Assembly: GCF_001984175.1 (NCBI RefSeq)
Contig: NZ_MTQP01000062.1
Location: 186,001 to 250,000, forward strand
Source: Saccharothrix sp. ALI-22-I
GTDB lineage: Bacteria; Actinomycetota; Actinomycetes; Mycobacteriales; Pseudonocardiaceae
Direction of reading: 5' to 3'
Length of the DNA stretch: 64,000 nucleotides
A model generated the notes under the pieces. That model saw only the letters and a program-made list of their open reading frames with translations. It was not told where the DNA came from and ran no database searches. The position numbers were made by a program, and so were the translations under genes. Below are positions 5,459 to 20,629 of the stretch, piece after piece (position 1 is the stretch's first letter; the number at the start of each line of letters is the position of its first letter).

Positions 5459-5540
5459 CCCGCGTGTCCAACCCCCAGAACGCGCGTGTCCAACACTCAG
5501 AACACCCGAGTTCAACGCTCAGAACACCCGCACAAACGTC
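5459..5540. repeat. 22-bp phased ACGT-type array, copy A (three to four units)
   Basis: Cores starting AAC lie at 5470, 5492 and 5514, exactly 22 bp apart, with a fourth AACGTC at 5535. Each is preceded by a word (GTGTCC twice, then GAGTTC) and followed by CAGAAC, except the fourth. The array sits in the convergent gap between the cupin and pfkA genes, directly before a terminator hairpin. The same unit recurs at 8.69 and 19.33 kb. Confidence 0.8.
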
Positions 5541-8661: not shown

Positions 8662-8684
8662 CCACACCCCACCCGCACAACTAG

Positions 8685-8794
8685 CCCGTCCCGAACGTTC
8701 AACTCACCCGTCCCGAACGTTGGACACGCGCGTTCCCAACGTTGGACACGCCCGAGAGTCGTACGTTCAGGTCGCGAGAGTCGTACGTTCGCGG
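8685..8794. repeat. 22-bp phased ACGT-type array, copy B (five units, two orientations)
   Basis: Cores lie at 8694, 8716, 8738 (all AACGTT) and 8762, 8784 (both TACGTT); spacings are 22, 22, 24 and 22 bp. The first three units read in minus orientation (words GAGTTG, GTGTCC, GTGTCC on that strand) and the last two in plus orientation (word GAGAGTCG). The array fills the 172-bp gap between two convergent genes. The rest of the gap is GT-rich and shows no gene. Confidence 0.85.
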
Positions 8795-16300: not shown

Positions 16301-19294
16301 ATGGGTGCTGGGCCGTGGTTCGGTCTTCTCGGCCCCCTTGACGTGCGCATACAGGGTCAACCGGTACCGGTTCGGGCCGGAAAGCACCGGGCGCTGCTGG
16401 CCGCGTTGTCGCTGCGCGCCGGCCGGGTCGTCTCAATTGGCGAATTAGTTTCGTTTTTGTGGGGTTACGACCCACCGGCCCGCACGCGCGGCACCTTGCA
16501 GACCTACGTCATGCGACTGCGGCAGCTCCTGGGCGACCCGTCGTTGATCCGGACCACTTCGGACGGCTACCGGTTGGTGGTGCCGCCCGAGCACGTGGAC
16601 GTGCACCGGTTCACCACCACGGCGGGCCTCGCCCGGCAGGCCGCGCAGTCCGGGCACCTGGCGGACGCGGCCGAGCTGTACTCGGAGGCGTTGAGCCTGT
16701 GGCGCGGTCCGGCGTTGTCGGACGTGCCGTCGGAGGCGTTGCGCGAGGACGAGGTGCCGAGGCTGGCCGAACGGCTGCTGGTGGTGCACGAGGAGCGCAA
16801 CGACGTCGAGCTGGCGTTGGGCAACCACGAACGGCTGGTGCCGGTGCTGCGGTCGTTGACCACCGACCACCCGTTGCGGGAACGGTTCTGGGCGCAGCTG
16901 ATGGTGGCGCTGTACCGGGGCAGTCGGCAGGCCGAGGCGCTGGAGGCGTTCCGGCTGGTCGACCGGATGCTGAACGAGCAGCTGGGCATCGAGCCGGGGG
17001 TGGCGCTGCGCGAGCTGCACCAGGCGATCCTGGTCGGTGACCCGAGCCTGGCCGCGCCTGCCGAACGGGCCGATCCGGACGTGCCGGACCAGTTGCCGCC
17101 CGACGTGCCGGGGTTCGTCGGGCGGGTCGAGCTGGTGGAGCGGATTTCGCGGCTGATCGCGCCGGACGGGCCTCGCACCGCCGTGCCGATCGTGGTGCTG
17201 ACCGGCGTGCCGGGGGTGGGCAAGACGGCGTTGGCGGTGCACGTGGCGCACCGGCTGCGGGACCGGTTCCCGGACGGGCGGCTGTACGTGGACATGCGCG
17301 GGTACGGGTCGGGGCCGGTGGTGGAGGTGCTGCCCCGGTTCCTGCGGGCGCTCGGCGTGCCGCCCGAGCAGATCCCGGTGGACTCCGACGAGCAGAGCAC
17401 GTTGTTCCGGTCGTTGCTGACGGGTCGGCGGATGCTGCTGGTGCTGGACAACGCCGCCGCGCCGGACCAGGTGCGGCCGCTGCTGCCGGGCGCGGCGAGC
17501 TGCCCGGTGCTGGTGACCAGCCGGGACGACCTGCGCGGGCTGATCGCCGTCGACGGCGCCCGCCGGGTCGGGCTGGACGTGTTCGAGCCGCACGAGTCGC
17601 TGGCCCTGCTGCGGCGGTCCGGGGAGGCGGCGGAGGAGCTGGCGCGGCGGTGCGGGCACCTGCCGTTGACGTTGGACATCGCGGCGGCGTCGGTGGGCGA
17701 CGGGTCCGTGGGGCGTTATCTGGAACGGTTGGGCGCCCGCCATCCGCTGGACCTCGCGCACGCCTCGCTCACGCCGGGCGCGCGGCGGCTGTTCGGGCTG
17801 CTGAGCGTGGTGCCGGGGCCGGACTTCAGCACCGAGGCGGCGGCGAACGCGGCCGACCTGCCGGTGCCGGAGGCCGCCGCGCTGCTCGACGAGCTGACCG
17901 GGGCGCGGCTGGTGCTGCGGTCCGGGGCGGGGCGGTACTCGTTCCACGACGAGCTGGCGCGGTTCGCCGCCGAGGTGGCCGACGGGAAGGCAGCCGACGC
18001 CGAGCCGGCCTCCGACGTGGACGCGGCGCGGGTACGGGTACTGGAGTTCTACGTGCGGGCGGTGGACCACTGCGCCGAGCTGCTGTACCCGGATCTGATG
18101 CGGTTGCCCGCGCCGGTCGGGCGGGCGGTGCGGCTGCCGCGGATCGAGACGGCGGCGCAGGCGCGGGCGTGGCTGGACGCGGAGCGGGCGAACCTGACCG
18201 CGGCGATCCGTTCGGCGGCCGAACGCGGGCCGGCCGCGGTGTCGTGGCGGCTGGCCGACGCGCTGCGCGGGTACCTGTGGATCGGCAAGCACGTCACCGA
18301 GTGGCTGTCGACCGCGCAGTACGGGTTGGACGCGGCGCACTCGCAGCGTGACGTCGCGGGTGAGGCGGCGATGCACCAGAACCTGGCCACGCTGCACTGG
18401 CGGCTCGGCGACTTCGACACGTCCATCTCGTACTACACGCGGGCCGTGGAGCTGCACCGGATGTCCGGTGACCTGGCGTCGGAGGCAGGGGTGCGCAGCT
18501 ACCTCGGCGTGGTGCGGATGGAGGCGGGCGACCTGGCGGGGGCGCGGAACGACCTGGAGACGTGCCTGGCGTTGAAGCGCGAGTCCGGCGGGCCCCGGTC
18601 GGGTGATGCGGGCGTGCTGACCGGGTTGGGCGTGCTGGCGATCGAGACCGGTGAGCTGACCGAGGCGGTGGACCTGCTGGGCGAAGCGCTGGCGATCAGC
18701 GTGGACCACGGTATGCGCGCCAGCGAGATCACCGCGTTGACCTTGCTGGGCGTGGCGTCGCAGCTCATCGGCGAACCGCAGCGCGCGCTCACCCACCTCT
18801 CCGAGGCGCTGCGCCTGTCGATCGAGGCAGGCTTCCGCGAGGCCGCCGCACGCGCCCTGGAGAGCATCGCTTCCGTGCGCCTGGACCTCGGCGAACACTC
18901 CGAGGCCCTTTTGCTGGCAGACAAGGCGTTGACCGAACTGCGCGAGGACGGCGACCAGCGCATCACCACGAACGTGCTGATCGTCATGGCCTCCGCGAAC
19001 CGCGGCCTGGGCTCCCTCCGAACCGCCGACGAACAGTTCCAACAGGCCCTCACCAAGGCCCGCCGCATCGGCTACCTCCCCGGCGAGGCCCGCGCGCTGG
19101 TCGGCCTATCGGCCGTCCGCAGACTCCTGGGCCAACTCACCGAGGCCAAAGCCCTGGCCACCCAGGCCGTAACCCTCACCACAACCCTGGGCCTCCGCGT
19201 AACCGAACGCTCCGCCCGCACCGAACTAGCCGCCGCCCACCAATCCCCAGCCAACGAAACCACCCAACCCAACCCCCACTCGCACCCCCAGTGA
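16301..19294 (+). CDS. AfsR/SARP-type regulator: winged helix, BTAD, NB-ARC, TPR
   Basis: 997 residues. The order is an OmpR-like winged helix (about 5-90, FGLLGPLDVRIQGQPV), BTAD (about 100-245), an NB-ARC ATPase with Walker A GVPGVGKTA near residue 303 and Walker B RMLLVLDNAAA, and a C-terminal set of TPR repeats (about 690-980). This is the architecture of AfsR, a global activator of secondary metabolism. ATG 16301 has an AGGCGG just upstream; the GTG at 16265 abuts the -10 box and is rejected. No biosynthetic cluster is in the window, so its targets are unknown. Confidence 0.9.
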   Translation: MGAGPWFGLLGPLDVRIQGQPVPVRAGKHRALLAALSLRAGRVVSIGELVSFLWGYDPPARTRGTLQTYVMRLRQLLGDPSLIRTTSDGYRLVVPPEHVDVHRFTTTAGLARQAAQSGHLADAAELYSEALSLWRGPALSDVPSEALREDEVPRLAERLLVVHEERNDVELALGNHERLVPVLRSLTTDHPLRERFWAQLMVALYRGSRQAEALEAFRLVDRMLNEQLGIEPGVALRELHQAILVGDPSLAAPAERADPDVPDQLPPDVPGFVGRVELVERISRLIAPDGPRTAVPIVVLTGVPGVGKTALAVHVAHRLRDRFPDGRLYVDMRGYGSGPVVEVLPRFLRALGVPPEQIPVDSDEQSTLFRSLLTGRRMLLVLDNAAAPDQVRPLLPGAASCPVLVTSRDDLRGLIAVDGARRVGLDVFEPHESLALLRRSGEAAEELARRCGHLPLTLDIAAASVGDGSVGRYLERLGARHPLDLAHASLTPGARRLFGLLSVVPGPDFSTEAAANAADLPVPEAAALLDELTGARLVLRSGAGRYSFHDELARFAAEVADGKAADAEPASDVDAARVRVLEFYVRAVDHCAELLYPDLMRLPAPVGRAVRLPRIETAAQARAWLDAERANLTAAIRSAAERGPAAVSWRLADALRGYLWIGKHVTEWLSTAQYGLDAAHSQRDVAGEAAMHQNLATLHWRLGDFDTSISYYTRAVELHRMSGDLASEAGVRSYLGVVRMEAGDLAGARNDLETCLALKRESGGPRSGDAGVLTGLGVLAIETGELTEAVDLLGEALAISVDHGMRASEITALTLLGVASQLIGEPQRALTHLSEALRLSIEAGFREAAARALESIASVRLDLGEHSEALLLADKALTELREDGDQRITTNVLIVMASANRGLGSLRTADEQFQQALTKARRIGYLPGEARALVGLSAVRRLLGQLTEAKALATQAVTLTTTLGLRVTERSARTELAAAHQSPANETTQPNPHSHPQ

Positions 19295-19324
19295 GAGCGC
19301 TCCCACCCTCACACCCCCATCCCG

Positions 19325-19499
19325 AACGCTCACTTCACCCATTCCCAACGTTGGACACGCGCGTTCTGAACGTTGGACACGCGCGACGCGAACGTAGAAC
19401 TCACCCGTCCCCGACGTTCGAGAGTCGAACACTCAGGCCCCGCGTGTCCAACGTTCAGAACGGGCGTGTCCAACGGTGGGAATGGGTGAGTTGAGCGTT
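19325..19499. repeat. 22-bp phased ACGT-type array, copy C (nine units, outward-pointing halves)
   Basis: Cores at 19325, 19347, 19369, 19391 and 19413 lie exactly 22 bp apart in minus orientation; cores at 19428, 19450, 19472 and 19494 are again 22 bp apart in plus orientation. The halves form an imperfect inverted repeat of about 59 bp (19327-19386 against 19441-19499) with few mismatches. Words are GTGTCC, GAGTTG/GAGTTC and GAGAGTCG. It fills the gap between the convergent AfsR-like and PimB' genes and touches the PimB' stop codon. Confidence 0.85.
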
Positions 19500-20629
19500 C
19501 AGGTGTTGATCAGGGTGGCCAGGCGGTCGGCTAGGGCGTCCCAGCGCCAGTTGGTGGTGACCCATTCGCGGCCGGCGGCGCCCATCTTGGCGGCGGTGCT
19601 GGGGTCGGCCAGGAGGGCGGCGACGGAGTCGGCTACGTCGGAGATCTCGCGGCCGTCCACTACGCGGCCGGTCACGCCGTCGCGCACGGTTTCGGGGGCG
19701 CCTCCGGAGCGGCCGGCGACGACCGGCAGGCCGGTGGCGGACGCCTCCAGGTAGACGATGCCCAGGCCCTCGACGTCGAGGCCGCGACCGCGCGTCCGGC
19801 ACGGCATGGCGAACACGTCACCGGCGTTGTAGTGCGCGGGCAGTTCCTCCCACGGCACGGAGCCGGTCAGCACGACGTGGTCCGACACCCCGACGGAAGC
19901 CGCCAGGCTCTCCAGCGTCTTCCGGTACGGCCCGCCGCCCACCAGCAGCAACGCCGCGTCGGGCACCTGCCGCCGGATCTCCGGCAACGCCCGCACCAGC
20001 ACGTCCTGCCCCTTCCGCGGCACGAGCCGCGACACGCACACCACCACCGGGCGGTCACCCAGGCCGTAACGGGCCCGCAGAGCGGACCGCGCGGAAGCAT
20101 CCGGGGCGAACACCGACGTGTCCACACCGGACGGCAGGTGTTCCAACGCCGCCAGCGGACCGAACGCCGCCGCGAAACGGGACCGCGTGTACCGGCTCAC
20201 GTACGTCACCACGTCCGCATCCGACCCGATGCGCCGCAACGCCTGTCGCGCCCCCGGCAGCATCGACCACCCGACCTCGTGCCCGTGCGTCGACGCCACC
20301 ACCCGCGAAGCGCCCGCCGCCCGCAGTCGGGACGTCATCAACGCCAACGGCGCCGCCGCCCCGAACCACACGGCCTCACAGCGCGCTCCACGCAGGATGT
20401 CCGACGCCCGCCGCACCACGTCCGGCGTAGGCAGCATCAACGTCCCCGGATGCCGCACCACTTCGAACGGCTGCGCCGCGTCGAACGACGGGTGCGAGCC
20501 CGCGGCCGACTCCCACGACGGCGCGTACACCACCAGCGAAGGCAGCCGCACGGCCAACGCGTGCAAGTAGGCCTGGATACCGCCGGGCCGTGGCGGGAAG
20601 TCATTGGTCACCAACAGGGTCCGACGCAC
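19499..20629 (-). CDS. pimB: GT4 glycosyltransferase, phosphatidylinositol mannosyltransferase PimB' type
   Basis: 376 residues, GT-B fold. The N-terminal DFPPRPGGIQAY loop, SHGHEVGW-like THGHEVGWSMLPG, LLVGGGPYRKTLE and the EGLGIVYLEASATGLPVV nucleotide-sugar motif match family GT4. By its position next to fadD15 and the NlpC gene it corresponds to Rv2188c, which adds the second mannose to PIM1 from GDP-mannose on the inner membrane face. GTG 20629 lies 6 nt after TAACGT (20636-20641), so it is probably leaderless. Confidence 0.87.
   Translation of the reverse strand: MRRTLLVTNDFPPRPGGIQAYLHALAVRLPSLVVYAPSWESAAGSHPSFDAAQPFEVVRHPGTLMLPTPDVVRRASDILRGARCEAVWFGAAAPLALMTSRLRAAGASRVVASTHGHEVGWSMLPGARQALRRIGSDADVVTYVSRYTRSRFAAAFGPLAALEHLPSGVDTSVFAPDASARSALRARYGLGDRPVVVCVSRLVPRKGQDVLVRALPEIRRQVPDAALLLVGGGPYRKTLESLAASVGVSDHVVLTGSVPWEELPAHYNAGDVFAMPCRTRGRGLDVEGLGIVYLEASATGLPVVAGRSGGAPETVRDGVTGRVVDGREISDVADSVAALLADPSTAAKMGAAGREWVTTNWRWDALADRLATLINT

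Follow-up and report, generated by a model that had tools for sequence, protein, structure and literature searches.

Phased 22-bp repeat arrays behind stop codons form a dispersed family in a Saccharothrix genome

The Saccharothrix genome analysed here (10.3 Mb) carries a dispersed family of phased repeat arrays, one member of which occupies a gap between converging genes in our window, the 64,000-nucleotide stretch of DNA from which this work began. With a 9-bit profile, 44 arrays of at least three units, holding 290 units in total, were found in 1.2 Mb of the genome. Their best explanation, tentatively held and a little short of evenly balanced, is a platform of double-stranded DNA at gene ends on which a protein binds. 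The hundreds of units at gene ends, with their two-turn period and fixed order of words, suggest a mechanism, for which we found no description, that keeps neighbouring or colliding genes apart; among the open-access papers listed, judged by title or the start of the abstract, none dealt with such an element. Should the arrays be only a selfish repeat, an explanation for their strict phase and the order of their words would be needed all the same.

The focal array lies between gene A (16457 to 19294, plus strand), a SARP/AfsR-type regulator with BTAD, NB-ARC and TPR domains, and gene B (19499 to 20629, minus strand), a group 1 glycosyltransferase; both genes face it with their 3' ends, so that it does fill a convergent gap, as an earlier, sequence-only reading had stated. 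That reading had also described nine cores of ACGT type spaced 22 bp apart, the first five minus and the last four plus, and a recount in the gap agrees: minus cores start at 19325, 19347, 19369, 19391 and 19413, and plus cores at 19428, 19450, 19472 and 19494, with seven of the eight intervals being 22 bp and one, between core starts across the inversion, 15 bp. The extent of 19325 to 19499 given there was too short, since whole units span 19315 to 19509. On the minus strand these are a degenerate unit at the outer left end, GAAGTG-AGCGTT (19315 to 19336), with its core in phase; GTGTCC-AACGTT at 19337 to 19358 and again at 19359 to 19380, the latter copy identical to the genome consensus, and GAGTTC-TACGTT at 19381 to 19402 (profile match and phased core in all three); and a degenerate central unit, CTCTCG-AACGTC (19403 to 19424), in which the core was found. 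Both degenerate units are missed at a 6-bit threshold. The plus strand has a start-type unit, GAGTCG-AACACT (19422 to 19443), GTGTCC-AACGTT (19444 to 19465) and GTGTCC-AACGGT (19466 to 19487), each again a profile match with a phased core, and lastly an end-word unit, GAGTTG-AGCGTT (19488 to 19509), which overlaps the minus-strand stop codon of gene B (19499 to 19501). The two halves form an 82-nt inverted repeat with 83% complementarity. Self-identity of the gap is 0.53 at lag 22 vs 0.20–0.36 at all other lags from 12 to 33, and its longest in-phase run of five cores was reached in none of 5000 dinucleotide shuffles (shuffle maximum four). The 6-bit profile placed two further arrays in convergent gaps of the window, one of three plus-strand units (5464 to 5529) and one of three minus units and one plus unit (8684 to 8777); no known RNA family was found in the 64-kb window at Rfam gathering scores.

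Across the 10.3-Mb genome a strict unit pattern gave 146 matches and its backward control none. The 44 arrays were counted with a 22-column single-unit profile that assumes no spacing and was trained on the same 1.2 Mb on which it was run, namely three contiguous stretches comprising positions 1 to 340000 of the window's own contig (C59), 1 to 640000 of C65 and 100001 to 320000 of C62, the latter two chosen after matches had been seen there; genes were called with our own codon-usage script, not a published caller. At 13 bits the profile matched 295 times vs 3 on the reversed sequence, and this ratio, together with the shuffles of the gap, leads us to reject a chance origin for the focal array and its family. 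At 9 bits there were 71 clusters, of which 27 (26 single units and one pair 98 bp apart) lie inside predicted genes and do not enter the array counts; since the reversed control gave seven matches at this threshold, real remnants may be among them. The unit consensus is GTGTCCAACGTTCAGAACGCGC, in which columns G1, G3, T4, A8, C9, C13, G15 and C18 are at least 0.90 conserved.

The rigid two-turn period suggested by the focal array holds throughout the genome, where 22 bp is the length of every same-direction step but one (210 of 211), the exception being 20 bp, and gives way to 21 bp in some relatives. Allowing any spacing from 16 to 28 bp yielded 184 matches, vs 182 at a fixed 22. Neighbouring units share 77% of their bases, with 1074 differing positions in all, and outward inversions have a spacing of 28 in 15 of 19 cases here and in 20 of 24 among the matches listed from relatives' loci. 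The words GTGTCC and GAGTTG or GAGTTC are present as the sequence-only reading had claimed, but they do not interchange freely; their order within blocks is regular genome-wide. Read in their own direction, blocks of at least three units open with GTGTCC (45 of 65) or GAGTCG (17 of 65), continue with GTGTCC in 114 of 136 middle units, and close in 59 of 65 cases with GAGTTG, GAGTTC, GAATTC or GAATTG (GARTTS), words that account for five of the 136 middle units. Of all columns, word columns 2, 5 and 6 depend most strongly on one another (0.43 and 0.41 bits). Outward-pointing halves are not the rule, there being 13 outward, 10 inward, 15 one-directional and six composite arrays. Inward junctions share GAGTTCAACGTTCGGAACGTTGAACTC, a palindrome about one central base in which two end units overlap head to head, seen at C59 136554 to 136713 and at loci L041 and L052, with L032 and L033 close to it.

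The arrays sit behind genes. Of the 44, 24 occupy convergent, 19 tandem and one a divergent gap, whereas the gaps of at least 60 bp in the sample (108 convergent, 326 tandem and 188 divergent) would predict 7.6, 23.1 and 13.3 (chi-square p ~6e-11); copies without preference for convergent gaps, which had been proposed as the mark of a chance or degenerate repeat, are hence not what the genome holds. Counted per 3' end, two to each convergent gap, the figure is 24 convergent vs 17.1 expected of 43 (p 0.03), so that much of the convergent preference comes from such a gap having two 3' ends and the remaining excess is mild. A bias towards 3' ends thus stands, as does a convergent one of this modest size, but confinement to convergent 3' ends does not: 16 of the 19 tandem-gap arrays lie closer to the upstream stop than to the downstream start. 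A motif-free search for 44-bp self-repeating windows at lags 14–33 gave 57 convergent, 40 tandem and three divergent windows at lag 22, and at most four, six and three respectively at other lags; a minor excess of 30-bp self-repeats (six windows) was seen in tandem gaps. From stop codon to nearest unit the median is 15 bp for sense blocks (n=34) and 17 bp for antisense blocks (n=33), the distance being 66 bp or less in 61 of 67 cases, with some units overlapping the stop. Since blocks lie 34 sense and 33 antisense relative to the gene, they have no RNA polarity, and we rejected a strand-specific RNA site.

In the genus, the 22-bp pattern is found in 15 of 25 genomes and has no match in the other 10, where the element is dispensable or replaced; in the family it occurs in 38 of 390 genomes, spread over 14 of the 46 genera, and the control pattern matches in two of the 390. 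Other families of the order are at background, 11 of 106 genomes having a match vs five with a control match, and their 12 matches have spacings of 16 to 25, with one at 22 and two at 21. There are 23 matching genomes outside the genus, and one locus each was viewed in 15. Lag 22 appears in six (G100, G102, G208, G212, G240 and G242), which is partly built in because loci were fetched with a 22-bp pair, and lag 21 in three (G145, G213 and, weakly, G191). Six have no clear lag; G150 and G181 among them show units, and G097, G103, G104 and G115 show none, their matches probably being due to chance. The nine loci with a lag comprise four convergent, four tandem and one divergent gap. G213, at lag 21, has 22 matches with free spacing vs one at a fixed 22. 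A 200-kb sample of G145, which belongs to another genus, was taken regardless of matches and also has period 21, with 14 of 16 lag-21 windows convergent, two tandem and none divergent; its loci (L311–L320 and L163) are blocks of at least 10 units at that period, mostly in convergent gaps. In 200-kb samples of G004, G017 and G115 no array of the phased-unit kind was found, and what a looser cut added were dissimilar repeats, one of 22 bp in a divergent gap of G017 and two at lag 21 in G004. The corresponding sample of G015 held none, although 173 matches lie elsewhere in that genome, while that of G019 held two lag-22 windows, both tandem, and a 60-kb piece of G150 held two windows at lag 21 and two at lag 15. 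We gathered at least 99 stretches of relatives' DNA, 94 from Saccharothrix and five from an Actinophytocola MAG; among the matches listed, 462 of the 465 steps no longer than 60 bp measure 22 bp, a figure that, like the word tallies, is partly built in, the search pattern having included a word and one 22-bp pair. The conserved phase that the sequence-only reading had asked for is present, at 22 or 21 bp, in several genera. At G063:C1 1208408–1252684, five identical 26-base matches are separated by three intervals of about 4.9 kb and one of 29.6 kb, and are perhaps modules of large genes and not an array.

Individual gaps often keep their arrays between species. Units next to gene B are kept in all 11 species in which its identity is at least 91%, three or more in nine of them, two in G015 and one in G018, with GTGTCC, GAGTCC, GTGTCG or GAGTCG as the leading word. 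Of fourteen more distant genomes, thirteen hold no unit that the profile recognises; the fourteenth, G019, carries a 22-bp array that has diverged. Inspection by eye of the region beside gene B in G004, G006, G007, G012, G014 and G024 suggests that gene A is absent there; it also shows a strong GC-rich hairpin adjoining gene B in these six and, in four, the end of an acyl-CoA synthetase-like gene. More generally, 83 relatives' arrays among the matches listed had flanks long enough to map on the 1.2-Mb sample and 17 of them could be placed by both flanks; 12 of the 17 (11 of 16 sites) meet an array in the same gap of our genome and five do not, compared with a baseline occupancy of 24 of 108 convergent and 19 of 326 tandem gaps. 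Words and unit numbers in these shared gaps have changed between species.

On the protein-platform reading, each unit of 21–22 bp would be one protein site with the skeleton G-W-G-T-Y-N-N-A-C-G-T-T-C-N-G, and spacing of two helical turns would align the protomers of one protein on one face for cooperative loading, in a directional block closed by a special end unit. The coated strip, mostly within about 65 bp of the stop codon, would meet transcription from either side and might act as a roadblock or insulator, or handle local torsion. Protein binding, cooperativity and any effect on RNA polymerase or supercoiling are what we infer. The fixed period, the tolerance of substitution, the distinct last unit and the indifference to gene direction fit sites for a protein on double-stranded DNA better than they fit an RNA structure; steps of 22 bp have held despite all the differences between neighbours, and the same gap is occupied in most of the placed arrays listed. 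A role at gene ends would account for the placement behind stops and the scarcity in divergent gaps, but so would a repeat that is merely tolerated there. Against the platform, tandem duplication too produces exact phase, and the count of substitutions is inflated by the mixing of old unit types; the element is patchy within the genus, five of the 17 placed arrays listed have no counterpart, inverted arrays fold stably as RNA, 27 clusters lie inside predicted genes and convergent gaps are only mildly favoured. A more specific version, possible if somewhat unlikely, is an insulator system of Pseudonocardiaceae gene ends, in which a putative protein would coat sites spaced two turns apart behind stop codons and, acting from both sides, terminate transcription units or keep them apart, its recognition word drifting by species along with its sites. 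The arrays would be ready bait for the candidate protein and a natural experiment in a protein and its sites changing together.

Alternatively, units may be selfish or neutral, spreading by conversion or copying between arrays and surviving harmlessly behind stop codons. We consider this unlikely, though it deserves weight: the main word differs between species (one set of tallies being skewed by the way loci were retrieved), some arrays contain recent identical tandem copies, such as five identical units at C65 117904, and the family is patchy in genus and family and almost absent from divergent gaps. Ordered words with an end unit, a period of 21 or 22 in several genera and occupation of the same gaps in other species speak against it, as does the absence of a transposase beside arrays in a search confined to Y1_Tnp. 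The two Y1_Tnp genes in the genome (open frames of 133 and 152 aa) have no array in their 3.4-kb loci, one of which has no unit and the other (L337) a single 11-bit unit.

A second alternative, to which we give a distinctly low probability, places the function in RNA: read-through transcripts of inverted arrays would form one long hairpin and thereby terminate or shield both transcripts, a bidirectional terminator or 3'-end stabiliser. The arrays are placed as terminators would be, the focal array is itself a long inverted repeat, and the 29 inverted arrays have strong predicted folds (mean z -9.6, about -0.56 kcal/mol per nt, 25 mononucleotide shuffles each); an RNA effect may exist, since every inverted array folds well by its build. 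The 15 one-directional arrays, however, fold weakly (mean z -2.3), and the arms of inverted ones are often unequal in length. Arm matching is 0.695 within vs 0.726 between outward arrays (1971 of 2000 shuffles at or above the observed value) and 0.731 vs 0.733 for inward arrays (1123 of 2000); arms that match no better within than between arrays argue against a selected hairpin. The inner palindrome of the unit is imperfect and 11 bp long, its five pairs being Watson-Crick in 0.53–0.85 of cases with covariation of at most 0.017 bits (z up to 3.5), and a selected hairpin or cruciform is not clearly supported. Strong hairpins outside the array occur in four of 24 array gaps vs 43 of 84 array-free convergent gaps, but a length-matched control expects 2.1; no hairpin avoidance beside arrays is seen in that comparison, and we dropped the statistical claim that arrays replace terminators. 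Ordinary terminator-like hairpins were seen by eye behind some arrays, for example at C65 57382 and 86512, and no U-run after a stem was obvious in the arrays inspected. Like intrinsic terminators, the arrays lie behind stop codons and the inverted ones can fold; unlike them, they include one-directional forms and have arms not matched to each other.

Among known systems, mammalian rDNA terminator repeats (Sal boxes) are bound by TTF-I, and resemble the arrays in offering several sites, here putative ones, behind a gene end that could stop a polymerase; our arrays are bacterial, genome-wide, of other sequence, indifferent to gene orientation and known here from their sequence. BIMEs have mixed orientations and bind gyrase. 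REP and BIME elements are described as dispersed intergenic repeats found mainly between convergent and unidirectional genes, with a GTAG or CGTC tag at one end defining the REP (PMC3733652). The arrays share that preference for convergent and unidirectional gaps, but three of four features fail, and we rejected REP membership: there is only the imperfect inner palindrome and none of 20–40 bp, GTGTCCAACGTTCAGAACGCGC carries neither a GTAG nor a CGTC tag, and the search gave no RAYT flanked by arrays, the genome's Y1_Tnp matches being the two above; the units are moreover phased at 21–22 bp with ordered words. BldC is reported to form head-to-tail oligomers that bind cooperatively to direct repeats, its sites being 9-bp AATTXXXX(C) repeats in promoters (PMC5859096). 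Comparable cooperative binding by a small actinobacterial protein to directional repeats would give polar blocks such as ours, which differ from BldC sites in their period of 21–22 bp, AACGTT core and position at 3' ends. Last, a gyrase or nucleoid-protein site handling supercoils between converging genes, as proposed for Escherichia coli BIMEs, is very unlikely, the unit not being a palindrome and 19 of 44 arrays lying in tandem gaps, although 3'-end placement, a tandem multi-site build and the distribution in G015 speak for it: in that single-contig genome, taken as a circle, the half around dnaA holds 139 of the 173 matches and the opposite half 34.
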